Below are positions 28,294 through 35,934 of a DNA stretch of 64,000 nucleotides, piece by piece (the first letter of the stretch is position 1; every line of letters starts with the position of its first letter). The position numbers were made by a program, and so were the translations under genes. The DNA is from Hyphomicrobiales bacterium. GTDB taxonomy: Bacteria; Pseudomonadota; Alphaproteobacteria; Rhizobiales; Phreatobacteraceae. The notes under the pieces were generated by a model that was not told the origin of the DNA, did not search any database, and worked only from the letters and a program-made list of their open reading frames with translations. The DNA lies in NCBI GenBank assembly GCA_017304475.1, contig JAFKKV010000018.1, positions 186,001 to 250,000 on the forward strand. The letters are read 5' to 3'.

Positions 28294-29238
28294 TCAGCCG
28301 GCGGATGGCGCCGCCTCGGTGCGGATCGCCTTGGCGATCACCTTCTGCCGGTCGTTTTCGGCGCGCCGCCGCTCGACCTCTTCGGCCGGCATGCGTGCGA
28401 CATTCATGAAATCCTGCTTCCAGTCGGCACTCGCGCTCCAGCGCTGCGGCGACTGCACGGTGGTGCGCGCAGCGGGAGCTGCGGCGAGCAGGTCGAGCGC
28501 GAGCGCCAGCGTCTCCCGCTGGGAGGCGAGGTCCTTCGGCCGGCCGGCGGAATTGCCGAGCGGGAAATCGCTGAACAGGAAGCGCGGCACGCCGACATGT
28601 TCGACGATGTCCTTGGCGCAGCCCATCACCACGGTGGCGATGCCGTTCACCTCCAGGTGACGGGCCACCAGGCTCACCGTCTGGTGGCAGACCGGGCAAT
28701 TGGGCACCAGTACTGCCGCATCCACGCCGTCGGCCCGGCAGCGCGCGAGGATCTCCGGCGCGTCGGTCTCGATGGTGGTCTTCTGGCTGCGATTGGTCGG
28801 CGCGCCGTGGAAATGCGGGGCCAGCACCCCGATCCGGCCCTCGGCCGCGAAGCGGCGCAGCAGCGGCAGCGGAAACCAGCTGTTCGGGTCCTCGGCCCTG
28901 CTATGGGTCCGGTCATAGGCTATGTGGGAAATCCTGAGGTCGTGATCCCCGTCCGACCGGCCCGAATAGGCCGAATAGAACTTGGCCGCGGCATTATAGG
29001 CGGCCCCCGGTCCCTGATCGCCCTTGTCCGGCTGATAGGGCGCTGCGGTTGTGATGAGGGCGACCCGGCTCTCCGCCAGGTGCTTGGCCAACGGCTGGAA
29101 CGGCACGTGGTCGTAATGGGCCCAGCGATAGGGATTGCCGTAGCCGAGCGTCAGGTAATAGTCGCGGGTGCGCTGCATATAGGCGATCGGCTGATCGTCG
29201 TCGGGCGCAAATCCGAGAGCGTCGTCGGCCGGCGTCAT
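28294..29238 (-). CDS. GrdB-like (glycine/sarcosine/betaine reductase B family) protein with Cys in place of Sec
   Basis: A 314-residue protein. VALITTAAPYQP near the start, LRISHIAYDRTHSRAEDPNSWFPLPLLRRFAAEGRIG (101-137, cited in part) and VDAAVLVPNCPVCHQTVSLVARHLE are the B-subunit (GrdB/PrdB) landmarks. In clostridial reductases the position of Cys181 is selenocysteine in a U-x-x-C motif; here it is Cys181-Pro-Val-Cys184. No other Grd subunits are nearby, and the host looks aerobic, so classical amino-acid reduction is unlikely. Function unknown; a redox-active CxxC enzyme is the safest statement. Start ATG 29238 with GAGGAG upstream. Confidence 0.75.
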   Translation of the reverse strand: MTPADDALGFAPDDDQPIAYMQRTRDYYLTLGYGNPYRWAHYDHVPFQPLAKHLAESRVALITTAAPYQPDKGDQGPGAAYNAAAKFYSAYSGRSDGDHDLRISHIAYDRTHSRAEDPNSWFPLPLLRRFAAEGRIGVLAPHFHGAPTNRSQKTTIETDAPEILARCRADGVDAAVLVPNCPVCHQTVSLVARHLEVNGIATVVMGCAKDIVEHVGVPRFLFSDFPLGNSAGRPKDLASQRETLALALDLLAAAPAARTTVQSPQRWSASADWKQDFMNVARMPAEEVERRRAENDRQKVIAKAIRTEAAPSAG

Positions 29239-29340: not shown

Positions 29341-31134
29341 TCAGGTGCCGGCCAGTTCCCGGCTCTGGCGGTCCAGCTCCTCGCTGTAGCGGCGCAGCAC
29401 ATGCTGCTCGGTCAATTGGCCGATGACCTGCAGCGTCTGGCGGTTGGTCACCACCGCCAGCGCGTCGCTTTCGGCCGCGGTGAACAGGGCGGCGGCGTCG
29501 CGCACATTCATTTCCGGCAGCAGCACGTGGGTCTGATAGTGCAGCAGTTCCGTGATGGTTTCGGCGGCCAGCCCCTCCTGGTGAGCCTCGGGCACCAGGA
29601 CGATGCCGGCATAGCGGTCGCCCTGGTCGACCACGACGACCCGCTGCGTGGCGCCGAGCGGGAACTGCCGACGGAACTGTTCGAGGGTGAGGTCGGATTT
29701 CACCGTACGCACGTCGCGCCGCATCATCCGGCCAACCGTCAGGTCGCGGATCCAGCCGATATCGGCGGCGCTGCGGATCACCTCGCCGCGCAGGTGGAAG
29801 CGCCAGGTGGTGAAGGAATAGCCGAAGACGCGCCGGACCGTGATCGACGAGATCACCGAGGCCGCCAGCACAGCGATGGTCAAAGGCAGGCTGCCGGTGG
29901 TCTCCAGCGCCAGGAAGGACATGGTCAGCGGCCCGCCGAGCACGGCGGTCGCCATGGCGCTCATGCCGATAATGCCGACCACCAAAGCCGGGATCTGCAG
30001 GCCGAAGGCCAGCATCCAGCCGATCGCCACCAGCTTGCCCAGCATGGCGCCGAGGAACAGGGCGGCGAAGAACAGGCCGCCGCGGAAGCCGGAGCCGATC
30101 GACACGGCGGAAGCGAGCGTCTTGAGCACGATCAGCAGGACCAGGAAGCCGGCGGAATAATAGGCCTCGAAACCGACATGCAGGGCCGAATGGCCCGAGG
30201 ACAGCACCGCCGGCGTGACCAGGCCGAGCACGCCGACCACCGCGCCGCCGATGGCCGGGCGGAACCAGACGGGAATGCGGCTCTGCCGGAAGGCGGCCTC
30301 GACCAGGGTGACGCCGCGCATCACGGCGATGCCGAGCAGCGCACAAAGCACGCCCATCAGCATGACCAGCGTGTAGTCGGACCAGGACAGGCTACCGGCG
30401 AAACCGACCTGGAACGAGACCGGCGTCGAGACCAGCCGCATGACGCCGATGGCCGAGATCGAGGCGATCGCGACCGGCGCAAGCGTTGCCACCGAATAGC
30501 TCGCGATGACCAGTTCGAAGGCGTAGAAGGCGCCGGTCAGGGGCGCGTCGAAGGCGGCGGCGATCGCGCCGGCCGCGCCGCAGCCGACCAGGGTCCTGAG
30601 ATCTGAGCGGCGCACGCGCAGCGAGCGGCCGAGCCTGGAGGCGATCGCCGAGCCGATCTGGGTATAGCCGGCCTCCATGCCGACCGAGGCGCCGAAGCCG
30701 TTCGACACCATGGTCTGGGCGACCACGGTGAGGCTGCCTTTCAGCGACATCCGGCCGCCATGCAGGGCATTGGCCTCCACGGGGTCGACGACCGTGCTGC
30801 GGCCGAGGCGCGCCAGCACATAGCCGATCAGCCCCATCAGCAGTCCGCCGGCGATCGGCACGAACACCGTGCGGATGGGGTCGACGAAGGGCGCCCCGCT
30901 CAGCTCGTCGCCGGGAATGGCGAACAGCACATGGTGCATTTCCCTGGCCACGGCGACCATGCCCGTGACGATCAGCCCCGACGCCATGCCGACGATGGCA
31001 GCGAGCACCGACAGCCAGATCTCGTTCTCGCGAACGATCGAGCGGACCATGCGCCACTCGGACACCTCGCGCAGGCGGCCGAGCCTTTCCCGGATCGACA
31101 AGGACGGGATGCGAAGCGAGGCGCGGGTGAGCAT
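29341..31134 (-). CDS. ClC-type chloride channel/antiporter with CBS domains
   Basis: A 597-residue protein with ~11 TM helices (35-420) followed by two CBS domains (about 450-590; WIRDLTVGRMMRRDVRT begins the first). ClC landmarks are present but altered: the gating segment reads GASVGMEAGYTQIG (canonical G-R-E-G-P with the Glu kept), and the second reads GSGFRGGLFFAALFLGAMLG instead of GxFxP. CBS domains usually bind adenosine nucleotides to gate the channel. It lies 15 bases downstream of the aminotransferase-like gene on the same strand, so it may be the last cistron of the ABC operon. Confidence 0.88.
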   Translation of the reverse strand: MLTRASLRIPSLSIRERLGRLREVSEWRMVRSIVRENEIWLSVLAAIVGMASGLIVTGMVAVAREMHHVLFAIPGDELSGAPFVDPIRTVFVPIAGGLLMGLIGYVLARLGRSTVVDPVEANALHGGRMSLKGSLTVVAQTMVSNGFGASVGMEAGYTQIGSAIASRLGRSLRVRRSDLRTLVGCGAAGAIAAAFDAPLTGAFYAFELVIASYSVATLAPVAIASISAIGVMRLVSTPVSFQVGFAGSLSWSDYTLVMLMGVLCALLGIAVMRGVTLVEAAFRQSRIPVWFRPAIGGAVVGVLGLVTPAVLSSGHSALHVGFEAYYSAGFLVLLIVLKTLASAVSIGSGFRGGLFFAALFLGAMLGKLVAIGWMLAFGLQIPALVVGIIGMSAMATAVLGGPLTMSFLALETTGSLPLTIAVLAASVISSITVRRVFGYSFTTWRFHLRGEVIRSAADIGWIRDLTVGRMMRRDVRTVKSDLTLEQFRRQFPLGATQRVVVVDQGDRYAGIVLVPEAHQEGLAAETITELLHYQTHVLLPEMNVRDAAALFTAAESDALAVVTNRQTLQVIGQLTEQHVLRRYSEELDRQSRELAGT

Positions 31135-31149
31135 GATCGGCGGCCGGGG

Positions 31150-32073
31150 TCAGGCGAGAAGGCTCTCTTGATAGATGTCGCTGATGCGCGCCGTAAAGGG
31201 GCCGGGTCGGCCGTCGCCGATCACGCGGCCGTCGATACGGGTCACCGGCGTGACGCCGCCGAGCGTTCCGGTGACGAAGGCTTCGTCGGCGCTGTAGGTT
31301 TCGGCCAGGGTGAAATCCTTTTCGCGCACCGTGCCGACCTCACGGCCGTAGAGCTTGACGATCTTGCCGCGGGTAATGCCCATGAAGTTGCAGCGGCCGG
31401 TCGAGGTCCACAATTCGCCGTCGCGGACGATGAAGAAATTGGTCGAGTTGCAGCTCGCCACGAAACCTTGCGGATCGAGCATCAGCGCCTCGTCGGCGCC
31501 GGCATTGATCGCCTGGATCAGGGCCTGGATGAAGTTCAGGCGGCTGTGCGAATTGAGCCTGAGGTCGAACACGTCGGGGCCGCTGCAGCGGATGGCCGAG
31601 GTGAACAGGGTCAGGCCCCGGGCCTTCACCTCCGGTTTCGGCGCCTTGTATTCGGCGACGATGACGATGGTCGCCTGGCCGAGCGCGAAGCGCGGGTCCT
31701 GGTTCGGCGTCTTCTTGCGCCCGCGGGTGACCATCAGCCGGATATGGGCGCCGTCGGTCATGCCGTTGCGGTCGAGGGTCGCCTGCATGGCGGCGATCAT
31801 CTCGGTCTTGATCAGGCCGATATCCAGCTGGATGGCGCCGGCGCCCTCATAGAGCCGCTTCATGTGCTCGTCGACGGCGACCAGCTTGCCGCGCACCAGG
31901 CGAAGCCCCTCCCAGACGCCGTCGCCGAGCACGAAGCCGGCATCGAAGACCGAGACGGAGGCCTGGTCGCGCGGCACGAAGGCGCCGTTGACATAAACCA
32001 GCACGTTTTCATTGCGCGGATCGTCGACATAGCCTTGGGCGCTGGACTGGCTCTGGTCTTGCGGATTGCTCAC
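31150..32073 (-). CDS. Class IV aminotransferase-fold protein lacking the expected PLP lysine
   Basis: A 307-residue protein of the BCAT/DAAT/ADCL fold: VYVNGAFVPRDQASVSVFDAGFVLGDGVWEGLR (26-58, cited in part) is the N-terminal domain, and GFVASCNSTNFFIVRDG, GITRGKIVKLY and VTGTLGGVTPVTRIDGR are family segments. In active enzymes a Lys-x-x-Asn motif precedes the helix that here begins LNFIQALIQA. In this protein the residues are His176-Ser177-Arg178-Leu179-Asn180, and there is no Lys between 151 and that helix. It may therefore be inactive, use a different residue, or act in binding. GTG start with GGAGG. It is the last enzyme of the polar amino-acid importer operon. Confidence 0.85.
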   Translation of the reverse strand: MSNPQDQSQSSAQGYVDDPRNENVLVYVNGAFVPRDQASVSVFDAGFVLGDGVWEGLRLVRGKLVAVDEHMKRLYEGAGAIQLDIGLIKTEMIAAMQATLDRNGMTDGAHIRLMVTRGRKKTPNQDPRFALGQATIVIVAEYKAPKPEVKARGLTLFTSAIRCSGPDVFDLRLNSHSRLNFIQALIQAINAGADEALMLDPQGFVASCNSTNFFIVRDGELWTSTGRCNFMGITRGKIVKLYGREVGTVREKDFTLAETYSADEAFVTGTLGGVTPVTRIDGRVIGDGRPGPFTARISDIYQESLLA

Positions 32074-32125: not shown

Positions 32126-32911
32126 TCAGAACGAGAATTCGGTGAAGCGCGCGAGGAAGGCCTGCGTGCGTTCCTCGCGCGGGTGCTTCAGCACGTCGTC
32201 GGGCGTGCCGACCTCGTGGAAGCGGCCGTCGGCGAGGAAGATGACCTTGGTGGCGAAGTGATAGGCGAAGCCGAGCTCATGGGTGACCAGCAGCATGGTG
32301 CGGCCCTCCTCGGCAAGCGTCCGGATGACCCGCAGGACCTCGCCGACCAGTTCCGGGTCGAGTGAGGATGTCGGTTCGTCGAACAGCAGGATCTCGGGCT
32401 CCATGGCGAGCGCGCGGGCGATCGCGACGCGCTGCTGCTGGCCGCCGGACAGCCGGCTCGGATAGACGTCGACCTTGTCGCTCAGGCCGACCCGGGCAAG
32501 CTCTGCGGCAGCGCGCTGCCGGGCCTCGGCCCTGGCGACGCGCTTCACCGTCACCAGGCCTTCCATGGTGTTCTCGAGGACGGTCATATGCGGGAACAGG
32601 TTGAACTGCTGGAACACCATGCCGAGCCGCTCGCGCACGGCGCAGAGCTCGCTTTCCGGATAGGTCACCTGTTCCGCGCCGCGGCTGTCGGTGCGCACCT
32701 TGCCGATGCGCCGGCCGTCCACCGTGATGCTGCCGGCGGTCGGCATCTCCATGAAGTTGAGGCAGCGCAGCAACGTGCTCTTGCCCGAGCCGCTGCCGCC
32801 GATAATGGCGATGCGCTCGCCGGGTTCGACGGCAAGGTCGATGCCGCGCAGCACATGCAGCGGGCCGAAATTCTTGTGAAGGCCACGAACCTGCAGAATG
32901 GGATCGGACAT
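32126..32911 (-). CDS. Polar amino-acid ABC transporter ATP-binding protein
   Basis: A 261-residue GlnQ/HisP-type ATPase. Walker A GGSGSGKST is at 38-46, Q-loop VFQQFNLFPHMTV, signature LSGGQQQR from 154, Walker B LLFDEPTSSLDPE and switch His in VTHELGF. The insertion RTDSRGAEQVTYPESELC before the Q-loop is like that in some rhizobial amino-acid importers. It follows two permease genes in the leftward operon (binding protein, permease, permease, ATPase). Confidence 0.95.
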   Translation of the reverse strand: MSDPILQVRGLHKNFGPLHVLRGIDLAVEPGERIAIIGGSGSGKSTLLRCLNFMEMPTAGSITVDGRRIGKVRTDSRGAEQVTYPESELCAVRERLGMVFQQFNLFPHMTVLENTMEGLVTVKRVARAEARQRAAAELARVGLSDKVDVYPSRLSGGQQQRVAIARALAMEPEILLFDEPTSSLDPELVGEVLRVIRTLAEEGRTMLLVTHELGFAYHFATKVIFLADGRFHEVGTPDDVLKHPREERTQAFLARFTEFSF

Positions 32912-32942: not shown

Positions 32943-33608
32943 TCAGGCGCGGCGCGCGAGGTGCCGTTCGAGCCAGGCCGACAGGAAGCTGCCGGGATAG
33001 ATCAGGACGAAATAGACCAGCGCCACGGTCGAGAGGATCTCGAGCGGCCGGTAATAGGTCGAGCTCAGCAGCCGGCCCTGATACATCAGCTCGTGCACCG
33101 ACAGGATCGAGGCGAGCGAGGTGACCTTGGCGAGCTCGATGGCGCGGTTGGTGAAGGCGGGCAGCATGCGCCGGCCGACCTGCGGCAGGATGATCCGGCG
33201 CAGGATGTCGCGATGGCGCATGCCGAGCGCACGCGCGCCTTCCCACTGGCCCGGAGCGATCGACTGGATGCCGCCCCGGAAGATCTCGGCGCAATAGGCC
33301 GAGGTGTTGAGGGTCAGCGCCAGCGCCGCCGCCGCATAGGGCGAGAGCTGCAGGCCGATGATGATCGGAAAGGCGTAGAAGAACCAGATCAGCTGGATCA
33401 GCACCGGCGTGTCGCGGAACAGCTCGACGTAACAGAGGCTCGGCAGCCTCAGCCAGCGCCGCGCCGACAGCCGCGCGAGCGCCAGGAAGAAGCCCGCGGC
33501 GAGGCCGGCGCAAAAGCAGGGCGCCCACAGCGCGATGGTGACCCAGACGCCGCGCAGCAGCACCGGCCAGGTCTGGGCGATGAGGCCGAAATCGAACTCG
33601 TAATCCAT
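32943..33608 (-). CDS. Polar amino-acid ABC transporter permease (second)
   Basis: A 221-residue inner-membrane subunit with about five TM helices. The EAA loop reads EIFRGGIQSIAPGQWEGARALGM (cited in part), the contact site for the ATPase, with the HisMQ-family GQWEGARALG motif. It is paired with the permease at 33618; a 9-base gap suggests coupling. The two form the heterodimeric channel. Confidence 0.94.
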   Translation of the reverse strand: MDYEFDFGLIAQTWPVLLRGVWVTIALWAPCFCAGLAAGFFLALARLSARRWLRLPSLCYVELFRDTPVLIQLIWFFYAFPIIIGLQLSPYAAAALALTLNTSAYCAEIFRGGIQSIAPGQWEGARALGMRHRDILRRIILPQVGRRMLPAFTNRAIELAKVTSLASILSVHELMYQGRLLSSTYYRPLEILSTVALVYFVLIYPGSFLSAWLERHLARRA

Positions 33609-33617
33609 CGGTCCGCC

Positions 33618-34283
33618 TCAGCGATAGGCCGTCATGCGGATCTCGGCGAGGCGGGCGAGCCCGCTCGCCGTCACCAGCAGCACGAGATACATCACCGCGA
33701 TGGTCGAATAGACCTCCAGCGGCCGGAAGCTCTGGCTGTTCAATTGCATCGCCTGGTAGAGCAGCTCCGCATAGGCGAGCGTGGAGGCGAGCGCGGTGGT
33801 CTTGGTCAGCTCGAACGAGCGCTCCACGAAGGGCGGCACCATGCGCGCCAGGGCCTGCGGCAGCACCACGCGCCGCATCAGCTGGCGATAGCTCATGCCC
33901 AGCGCCTTGCCGCCCTCCCACTGGCCGGTTTCGATCGACACGATGCCGCCGCGAAACACTTCCGCATAGAAGGCACCCGACTGGGTCGACAGCGCCAGGA
34001 TGGCCGCGACGAAGGGGTCGAGGCTGATATTCATCAGCACCGGCAAGGCATAGAAGAACCAGAAGAAGTGAATGATCGGCGGGGTGTTGCGGTAGAACTC
34101 GATGAAGGCGGTGGCCGGATAGCGCAAGGCCATGCGCGGCGACAGCCGCATGAAGGCGAGCATCAGGCCGACGACGACGCCGCACAGGATCGAGATCGCG
34201 GCGATCAGCACCGTATTCCAAAGGCCGACTAGCAGCATGTCGAAATGCTGGAAGACCGGTCCGAAATCCCATCGATAGCTCAT
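33618..34283 (-). CDS. Polar amino-acid ABC transporter permease (first)
   Basis: A 221-residue HisMQ-family permease, the same length as its partner. TM segments are clear, for example TVLIAAISILCGVVVGLMLAF (22-42). The EAA loop is EVFRGGIVSIETGQWEGGKALGM (cited in part). It lies 49 bases after the binding-protein gene. Confidence 0.94.
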   Translation of the reverse strand: MSYRWDFGPVFQHFDMLLVGLWNTVLIAAISILCGVVVGLMLAFMRLSPRMALRYPATAFIEFYRNTPPIIHFFWFFYALPVLMNISLDPFVAAILALSTQSGAFYAEVFRGGIVSIETGQWEGGKALGMSYRQLMRRVVLPQALARMVPPFVERSFELTKTTALASTLAYAELLYQAMQLNSQSFRPLEVYSTIAVMYLVLLVTASGLARLAEIRMTAYR

Positions 34284-34332: not shown

Positions 34333-35172
34333 TCAGCTCCAGCGCTCCCGGACCAGGCCCGGCACGGTCGAGGCGTCGATGCCCTTGGTCTTGAGATAGT
34401 CGGCGAAGAAGGCCTGCGGCCTGCCGGCCTGGTAATATTCCGCGAATTTCTGGCTCATCCAGTCGCGGAAGGCCGGATTGTCCTCCTTGCGCAGGCCGGC
34501 GCTGGTGGCCACCGCCGTGACCGGTTCGGGCAGCACGACCTTGCCGAGGCGCAGGCGCGCATATTGCACCACCAAAGCCGGGTGGAACTGGGCGACGACA
34601 TCGACGCGGCGCGCGGCGAAGGCGGCGATGGCCTCGTCATTGTTGGAGAAGCGGCTGATGCTGGCGGCCTTCAGCGTCTCGGTGACGGTGCGGTCGACCG
34701 AGGTGCCGAGCGTCACACCGACGCGCAGGCCGGCCTTGTCGAGATCGGCCCAGGTCCTGATCGCGGCATCCTGCTTCACCAGCGCGCCGAGCGCGTAATA
34801 GAACAGCGGCGCCTGCGGGAAATCGATCGCCTTGCGCCGCTCCTCGGTCGGATCGAGCACGAACATCACGTCGATCTGGTCGGCCTGCAGGGCGGCGACG
34901 CAATTGGCCCAGGTGGTTTCCACCGGCACCATCTCGACGCCGAGATCGGTGGCGAGCTGCTGGCCGATGCTGATGCCGACGCCGCTCCAGGTGCCGCTCA
35001 TCGGATCCTTGAAGAACCAGGGTTCGGCCGAGGTCACGCCGATGCGCAGGCGCTTGGACTGCTTGACCCGGTCGAGCGTCGAGGCGGCGCCCTGGGCGAG
35101 CGCCGGGGAAGCCAGGGAGAGGCCGGCGGCGGCCGCCGTCAGGGTCAGGAACTGTCTGCGCTGGATGGTCAT
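34333..35172 (-). CDS. Amino-acid ABC transporter substrate-binding protein (family 3)
   Basis: A 279-residue periplasmic protein. The signal carries a twin-Arg-like RRQFL motif and ends near ALAQ. RLRIGVTSAEPWFFKD, WSGVGISIGQQLATDLGVEMVPVETTW and DVMFVLDPTEERRKAIDFP match type 3 binding proteins. Specificity is for an amino acid or analogue; the pocket cannot be read. ATG with AGGAG upstream. It is the first structural gene after the GntR regulator. Confidence 0.93.
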   Translation of the reverse strand: MTIQRRQFLTLTAAAAGLSLASPALAQGAASTLDRVKQSKRLRIGVTSAEPWFFKDPMSGTWSGVGISIGQQLATDLGVEMVPVETTWANCVAALQADQIDVMFVLDPTEERRKAIDFPQAPLFYYALGALVKQDAAIRTWADLDKAGLRVGVTLGTSVDRTVTETLKAASISRFSNNDEAIAAFAARRVDVVAQFHPALVVQYARLRLGKVVLPEPVTAVATSAGLRKEDNPAFRDWMSQKFAEYYQAGRPQAFFADYLKTKGIDASTVPGLVRERWS

Positions 35173-35217: not shown

Positions 35218-35934
35218 TCAGCCGGCGTCGCGGTCACGCAGAAAGGTCTCGGTCTGCATGGCGCCGCGCATCATGTGCTGGCGGATTTCGGTGCGCATGG
35301 CGTCGAGGTCGTCGCCGGTCGCCGCGGCGATATAGCTGTCATGGCCGTCGCGGCGCGGCCCGCGCATGCCGTGCGCCCGGTGATGGGCCGCCCAGTAGAG
35401 CTGCAGCCGGCCGCGCAGGCTCGCCCAGTTGTGCTGCAGGATGCGATGGCCGGTCGCCTCATAGACGAAGCCGTGCAGGTCGAGTTCGGCGAGAATGCTG
35501 GTGCGATCGTCGCCGGCATCGATCGAGGCGGTCAAGACGTCCTGCCGGCGCAGCAATTCGCGCCGGAAGGCCGCGCCGCGCCGGTCCCAGACCTGCTCGA
35601 AAGCGAAGGTCTCCAGCGCCACGCGCATGGAGTAGATCTCCCTGATGTCCTCGACCGACAATTCCACCACATTGGTGCCGGTATAGGGGATGGTGACCAG
35701 CAGGCCTTCGTCGATCAATTGCCGGATCGCCTCGCGCAGCGGCCCGCGGCTGACCCCGAACTGCTCGGCGAGGCTGGTTTCGACCAGGGGCGTGCCGGGC
35801 GCGATGTCGCCGCTCAGGATCGCTTCGCGCAGGCCCTCGACGATATGGGCCCGAAAGGTGCTCTTCGGCACGCGCGCCACCTTCACCGCCGCGGCGGTGG
35901 GGGCCTGTGCGCGTTTCGGTCCGGACAGCAGCAA
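35218..35934 (-). CDS. GntR-family regulator, FCD (FadR) subfamily
   Basis: The N-terminal winged helix spans ~25-95 (LREAILSGDIAPGTPLVETSLAEQFGVSRGPLREAIRQL, cited in part). The C-terminal FCD ligand domain has the metal-type residues in IYSMRVALETFAFEQ and ELDLHGFVYEATGH. It has 238 residues from a TTG at 35934; a GTG at 35883 is an alternative. An in-frame stop lies 21 bases upstream of the TTG. It lies upstream of and collinear with the amino-acid importer, 45 bases apart. A classic FCD operator lies 28 bases before its start, indicating autoregulation. Confidence 0.9.
   Translation of the reverse strand: MLLSGPKRAQAPTAAAVKVARVPKSTFRAHIVEGLREAILSGDIAPGTPLVETSLAEQFGVSRGPLREAIRQLIDEGLLVTIPYTGTNVVELSVEDIREIYSMRVALETFAFEQVWDRRGAAFRRELLRRQDVLTASIDAGDDRTSILAELDLHGFVYEATGHRILQHNWASLRGRLQLYWAAHHRAHGMRGPRRDGHDSYIAAATGDDLDAMRTEIRQHMMRGAMQTETFLRDRDAG

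Follow-up and report, generated by a model that had tools for sequence, protein, structure and literature searches.

Replacement of the PLP lysine in evolution is known from the ColD-type sugar dehydratases, which are transaminase-fold proteins of fold type I. They differ in fold from the protein described here and their Lys was exchanged for His, whereas here Lys was exchanged for Asn and a Glu column was changed as well. A much closer system is deposited in the PDB. Entry 7z79 (released 2022), an 'aminotransferase-like protein from Variovorax paradoxus', belongs to the same family as our protein (412 bits over residues 8-303), and entry 9j32 (released 2025) is the N174K mutant of the 7z79 protein, indicating that the depositors had already picked out Asn174. 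Given 9j32, the missing lysine by itself is not new. By title, no published function of the Lys-less family was found in the open-licence literature, and there may be a paper describing 7z79 or 9j32. The passages of PMC9309667 located by term make no mention of a Lys-less class IV clade, and three terms sought in PMC5131300 were absent. The fold is also like that of the archaeal branched-chain aminotransferases 5e25, 5cm0 and 5mqz (Z 29.5, 28.9 and 29.1; 37-40% identity), whose DPR and phosphate-cup residues align with our protein but which carry Lys and Glu where it has Asn174 and Ser207. It resembles as well the D-amino-acid aminotransferase 1daa and its E177S mutant 1g2w (Z 26.8 and 27.1; about 26% identity). 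We take E177 to be the N1 ligand of that enzyme, so that the 1g2w mutant bears the Ser that the clade has naturally; unlike our protein, this aminotransferase keeps its Lys.

Results

The window, by which we mean the whole analysed stretch of 64,000 nucleotides, holds the gene on the minus strand. It begins with a GTG start and has an open frame of 307 aa. On that strand the operon runs from a GntR/FCD regulator through a family-3 binding protein, two permeases and an ABC ATPase to the Lys-less gene and a ClC channel, with gaps of 9-52 bp:

35218..35934, minus strand, GntR/FCD transcriptional regulator (PF00392, PF07729)
34333..35172, minus strand, family-3 solute-binding protein (PF00497)
33618..34283, minus strand, ABC permease, HEQRo type
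32943..33608, minus strand, ABC permease, HEQRo type
32126..32911, minus strand, ABC importer ATPase, amino-acid type (best NCBIfam match cystine TcyN, below cut-off; upstream neighbour in 60/80 loci)
31150..32073, minus strand, Lys-less class IV aminotransferase-fold protein, 307 aa (ORF, PF01063, orthologous PDB chain 7z79)

The protein matches PF01063 (Aminotran_4) over profile positions 1-223 of 223 (E 1.1e-40, 140.3 bits, cut-off 28.5). Nineteen NCBIfam models match it, every one below its curated cut-off, and the best is PRK08320.1 with 246 of 363 bits. By profile and by fold, its nearest families are the branched-chain aminotransferases. The predicted model (pLDDT 78.0, below 50 at 168-177) agrees with the class IV aminotransferase fold: among the 50 entries listed its Z ranged from 25.7 to 31.8, with 31.8 to 7z79 and 29.5 to 5e25. 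Similarity to the V. paradoxus 7z79 protein is full-length, with 64% identity in the Foldseek alignment. That protein has Asn174 in the same motif (NSHSRLN) with the same numbering and shares Lys120 and Ser207; compared by entry titles and sequences, no important difference between the two sequences was seen.

The residues on which the following analysis turns are encoded at these positions on the minus strand:

31855..31857, minus strand, Arg73 codon, invariant in clade and outgroup
31714..31716, minus strand, Lys120 codon, the only column with Lys in more than 90% of the clade
31552..31554, minus strand, Asn174 codon AAT, in the catalytic-Lys column (codon read; alignment)
31453..31455, minus strand, Ser207 codon, in a column occupied by Glu in the Lys-bearing outgroup (alignment; position computed from the ORF coordinates)
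31372..31374, minus strand, Thr234 codon, invariant in clade and outgroup

The motif around the site reads R-L-N174-S-H-S-R-L-N, and the Lys of 5cm0, 5e25 and 5mqz aligns with Asn174 with no gap from the motif to the following helix. The earlier note had reported that no Lys occurs after residue 151 until the following helix; this is true, as Lys150 is followed by Lys237 with none between. It had also placed the replacement at His-Ser-Arg-Leu-Asn 176-180. The loss was confirmed but the position was not, the true column being Asn174, with His176-Ser177-Arg178 two to four residues beyond it.

A contig search gave 375 confirmed relatives, and among the best 80 of the 375, which were kept, all 80 carry Asn-Ser-His-Ser-Arg. 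The orthologue alignment that the earlier note had called for comprised 151 rows, 129 with Asn174 (window included) and 22 with Lys174, six of the latter being the other class IV proteins of the window genome (L002-L007), all with Lys; the window's own copies L001 and L088 were excluded. Lys is absent clade-wide, with Asn174 in 129/129 clade rows against Lys in 22/22 outgroup rows, so that the Schiff-base Lys of a PLP-dependent class IV transaminase is replaced by Asn throughout. Orthologues with Lys at 177 or 178, which the earlier note had named as evidence against the loss, do exist in the literal sense: column 178 is Lys in 36 of the 129 rows, the remaining 93 having Arg. The loss stands nevertheless, because this column lies four positions beyond the catalytic one and all 36 rows also carry Asn174. 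On the same grounds, Lys178 of this sister branch was rejected as the aligned catalytic Lys; residue 178 may contact a ligand. A role of His176 as an essential base was weakened by Leu at this position in 2/129 rows (L129, L141).

The same note had described the remainder of the fold as well kept. This is right only in part: column 207 is Glu in 22/22 Lys-bearing outgroup rows (Glu in 5cm0 as well), whereas the 129 clade rows divide into 92 with Ser and 37 with Thr. This is a second loss, absent from the earlier note. We take the Glu of this column to be the pyridine N1 ligand of PLP in BCAT and DAAT, in which case the N1-contacting residue of a transaminase is replaced by Ser207 in our protein. 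Arg73 and Thr234 were invariant in all 129 clade and all 22 outgroup rows, and presumably represent the PLP-phosphate Arg and a phosphate ligand (or a residue near the phosphate), so that the phosphate cup of a transaminase would be present. In 20 columns one residue reached at least 98% in the clade while the same residue was at most 15% in the outgroup; H110, K120, Q125, N174, H176, S177, N209 and S224 are among them.

Lys120 was found in 129/129 clade rows and in 7z79. It also occurs in L142 (213.6 bits) and L108 (202.2 bits), the top-scoring Lys174-bearing matches to the clade profile; since these two keep Lys174, Lys120 is probably older than the loss of Lys174. The idea that Lys120 was gained as a replacement when Lys174 went is weakened by the same two proteins.

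A single branch with SH-aLRT 100 separated the Asn174 from the Lys174 rows in a quick, unrooted tree search with several long outgroup branches. The order sample gave a match above 320 bits in 45/150 genomes (next best 202 bits), and the residue, read in 20 of the 45, was always Asn. In the class sample 40/289 genomes passed E 1e-55, four of them solely through Lys-bearing proteins, leaving 36; the residue was read in 29 of these and in the window's, and was Asn in each. Forty-one of 398 genomes passed 1e-70 in the phylum sample, a count that goes by score alone for the matches new to that sample. Five contigs binned as Chloroflexota (L039, L047, L062, L064 and L071, the last titled Thermoflexus) carry copies nested among proteobacterial ones in the tree, which may reflect transfer or mis-binning.

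With a dN of 0.15 and a dS of 0.54 in a single pair (window gene against the Azospirillum orthologue L008), the window gene appears from its sequence to be an intact, selected member of its clade. The window copy stands nearer to Azospirillum copies (79-81%) than to L090-L092, the copies of three genomes from its own genus (70-74%). The window genome is 8.4 Mb in size with 5.44% contamination listed; taken with these values, the Azospirillum likeness may be read as transfer or as a mixed assembly.

Coupling of the gene to an amino-acid importer under GntR control, as claimed in the earlier note, recurs elsewhere. In the 80 loci nearest to the window (the best 80 of the 375, a choice that favours importer context), the ATPase lay upstream on the same strand within 2 kb at 60/80, or at 56 of 74 when loci with less than 1.2 kb of sequence upstream are set aside; a permease was upstream at 56, a binding protein at 50 and a GntR gene at 32. 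The ATPase was missing at 20/80 of these loci, thus the importer and the Lys-less protein can occur apart. The ClC channel with a CBS domain (29341-31134, minus strand) starts 15 bp behind the Lys-less gene. A ClC homologue was seen at 15/101 loci; in most cases it follows the Lys-less gene directly, in Azospirillum, Methylobacterium and Rhizobium-type loci. Beyond it, 28294-29238 (minus strand) encodes a PrdB/GRDB-like reductase protein in a proteobacterial genome (PF07355; TIGR04483 at 85.8 bits, below its cut-off of 300), and no UGA has to be read as selenocysteine to keep its frame open.

Other branches show a different neighbour. A Sulfotransfer_5 gene was near the Lys-less gene at 27/128 clade loci (window not counted), namely at 9/92 loci with Arg178 and 18/36 with Lys178, counts that are lower bounds owing to short flanks at some loci. 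Twenty-five of the 27 genes shared the strand of the Lys-less gene and lay no more than 150 bp from it, while that of L095 was further away and that of L104 on the opposite strand. Importer ATPase and Sulfotransfer_5 occurred together at 0/80 loci; L018, L028 and L032 have Sulfotransfer_5 without the ATPase. PF19798 matched the four Sulfotransfer_5 proteins examined (L113:5251-5991, L119:5240-5992, L104:6906-7646 and L128:5231-5971), for which there was no NCBIfam match, and a WSGPRN-I-STA stretch is almost invariant in the Sulfotransfer_5 proteins adjoining Lys-less genes. The sole PDB match of this partner was the polyketide-synthase chain 4gox (E 1.8e-4). In the window genome neither protein search nor family search detected a Sulfotransfer_5 protein; the family search found it in 2/9 genomes (G058, G330) and in 0/14 control genomes. 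Plant proteins are known that fuse Sulfotransfer_5 and Lys-less-type domains. We failed to find a paper on these fusions under two Arabidopsis locus names, and among the 128 loci the search for a single-frame fusion gave seven ORFs longer than 480 aa with SHSKLN or SHSRLN, none of which had GPRN.

Discussion

Our comparison suggests that the Lys-less protein is most likely a repurposed pocket and not a conventional transaminase. In the rows read, this clade of fold type IV has exchanged the Schiff-base Lys for Asn174 and, at column 207, Glu for Ser or Thr, apparently once, and has retained the phosphate cup through both replacements. The pocket would then hold a phosphate-anchored ligand, be it PLP, PMP or some other compound bearing phosphate or sulfate, with no covalent bond at 174. 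In the window's branch the protein may act on a compound imported by the adjoining ABC transporter, and in other branches it may act together with the neighbouring Sulfotransfer_5 protein. We put at about even the chance that such a phosphate-anchored pocket has a job other than ordinary transamination. The retained cup would also fit plain non-covalent binding of PLP, which counts against this explanation, as does the lack of the importer ATPase at 20 of the 80 nearest loci.

The alternative that fares best is a former transaminase that no longer catalyses and serves the importer operon by sensing, buffering or chaperoning a compound that resembles an amino acid or PLP. Loss of both the Lys and the Glu column speaks for such a binder, as does the recurrence of the transporter, often with a GntR regulator, in its neighbourhood. 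However, the invariant columns specific to the clade seem more than a bare scaffold would need and lean towards a reworked active site rather than a sensor or chaperone, so we regard a non-catalytic binder as possible but rather unlikely.

It is doubtful that the protein is a PLP enzyme whose lysine has moved, with Lys120 serving as Schiff-base or general base in place of Lys174. The loop with Lys120 presumably reaches the partner subunit's active site, as in related enzymes, and its conservation in all 129 rows, as the only Lys column above 90%, and in 7z79 would suit this role; but Lys120 is already found in L108 and L142, both with Lys174. An ordinary but slow transaminase, binding PLP without a Schiff base, would account for the retained phosphate cup and for a fold and nearest families that are those of branched-chain aminotransferases. 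We consider it improbable, as two PLP contacts are gone across the whole clade and all 19 matching NCBIfam models stay below their curated cut-offs.

A more elaborate proposal joins several of these elements. At the pyridine N1, the fold-type-II arrangement with Ser or Thr favours beta-elimination over transamination. Ser/Thr207 might resemble that arrangement while Lys120, reaching in from the other subunit, stands in for Lys174. The substrate could be an amino acid activated by sulfate or phosphate, which the adjacent Sulfotransfer_5 protein would make in some branches and the ABC transporter would import in the window's branch; we regard the whole proposal as a long shot. Sequencing error, contamination artefact, pseudogene or recent decay can be dismissed almost entirely despite the listed contamination of the genome, since the frame is open and Asn174, with its motif, is common to the whole clade, being identical in the 128 other rows and in 7z79.

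As far as our searches go, the family is a variant of the class IV fold that has been crystallised but, within the open-licence literature, has no described function. The clade, seen in 36/289 class-sample genomes, has the fold of a BCAT or D-amino-acid transaminase without two residues that such enzymes use, and therefore a name assigned by similarity would be misleading. Both the importer operon and the Sulfotransfer_5 partner offer direct handles on the substrate, and the true job of the clade would reveal how a PLP fold is re-used once its lysine is lost.
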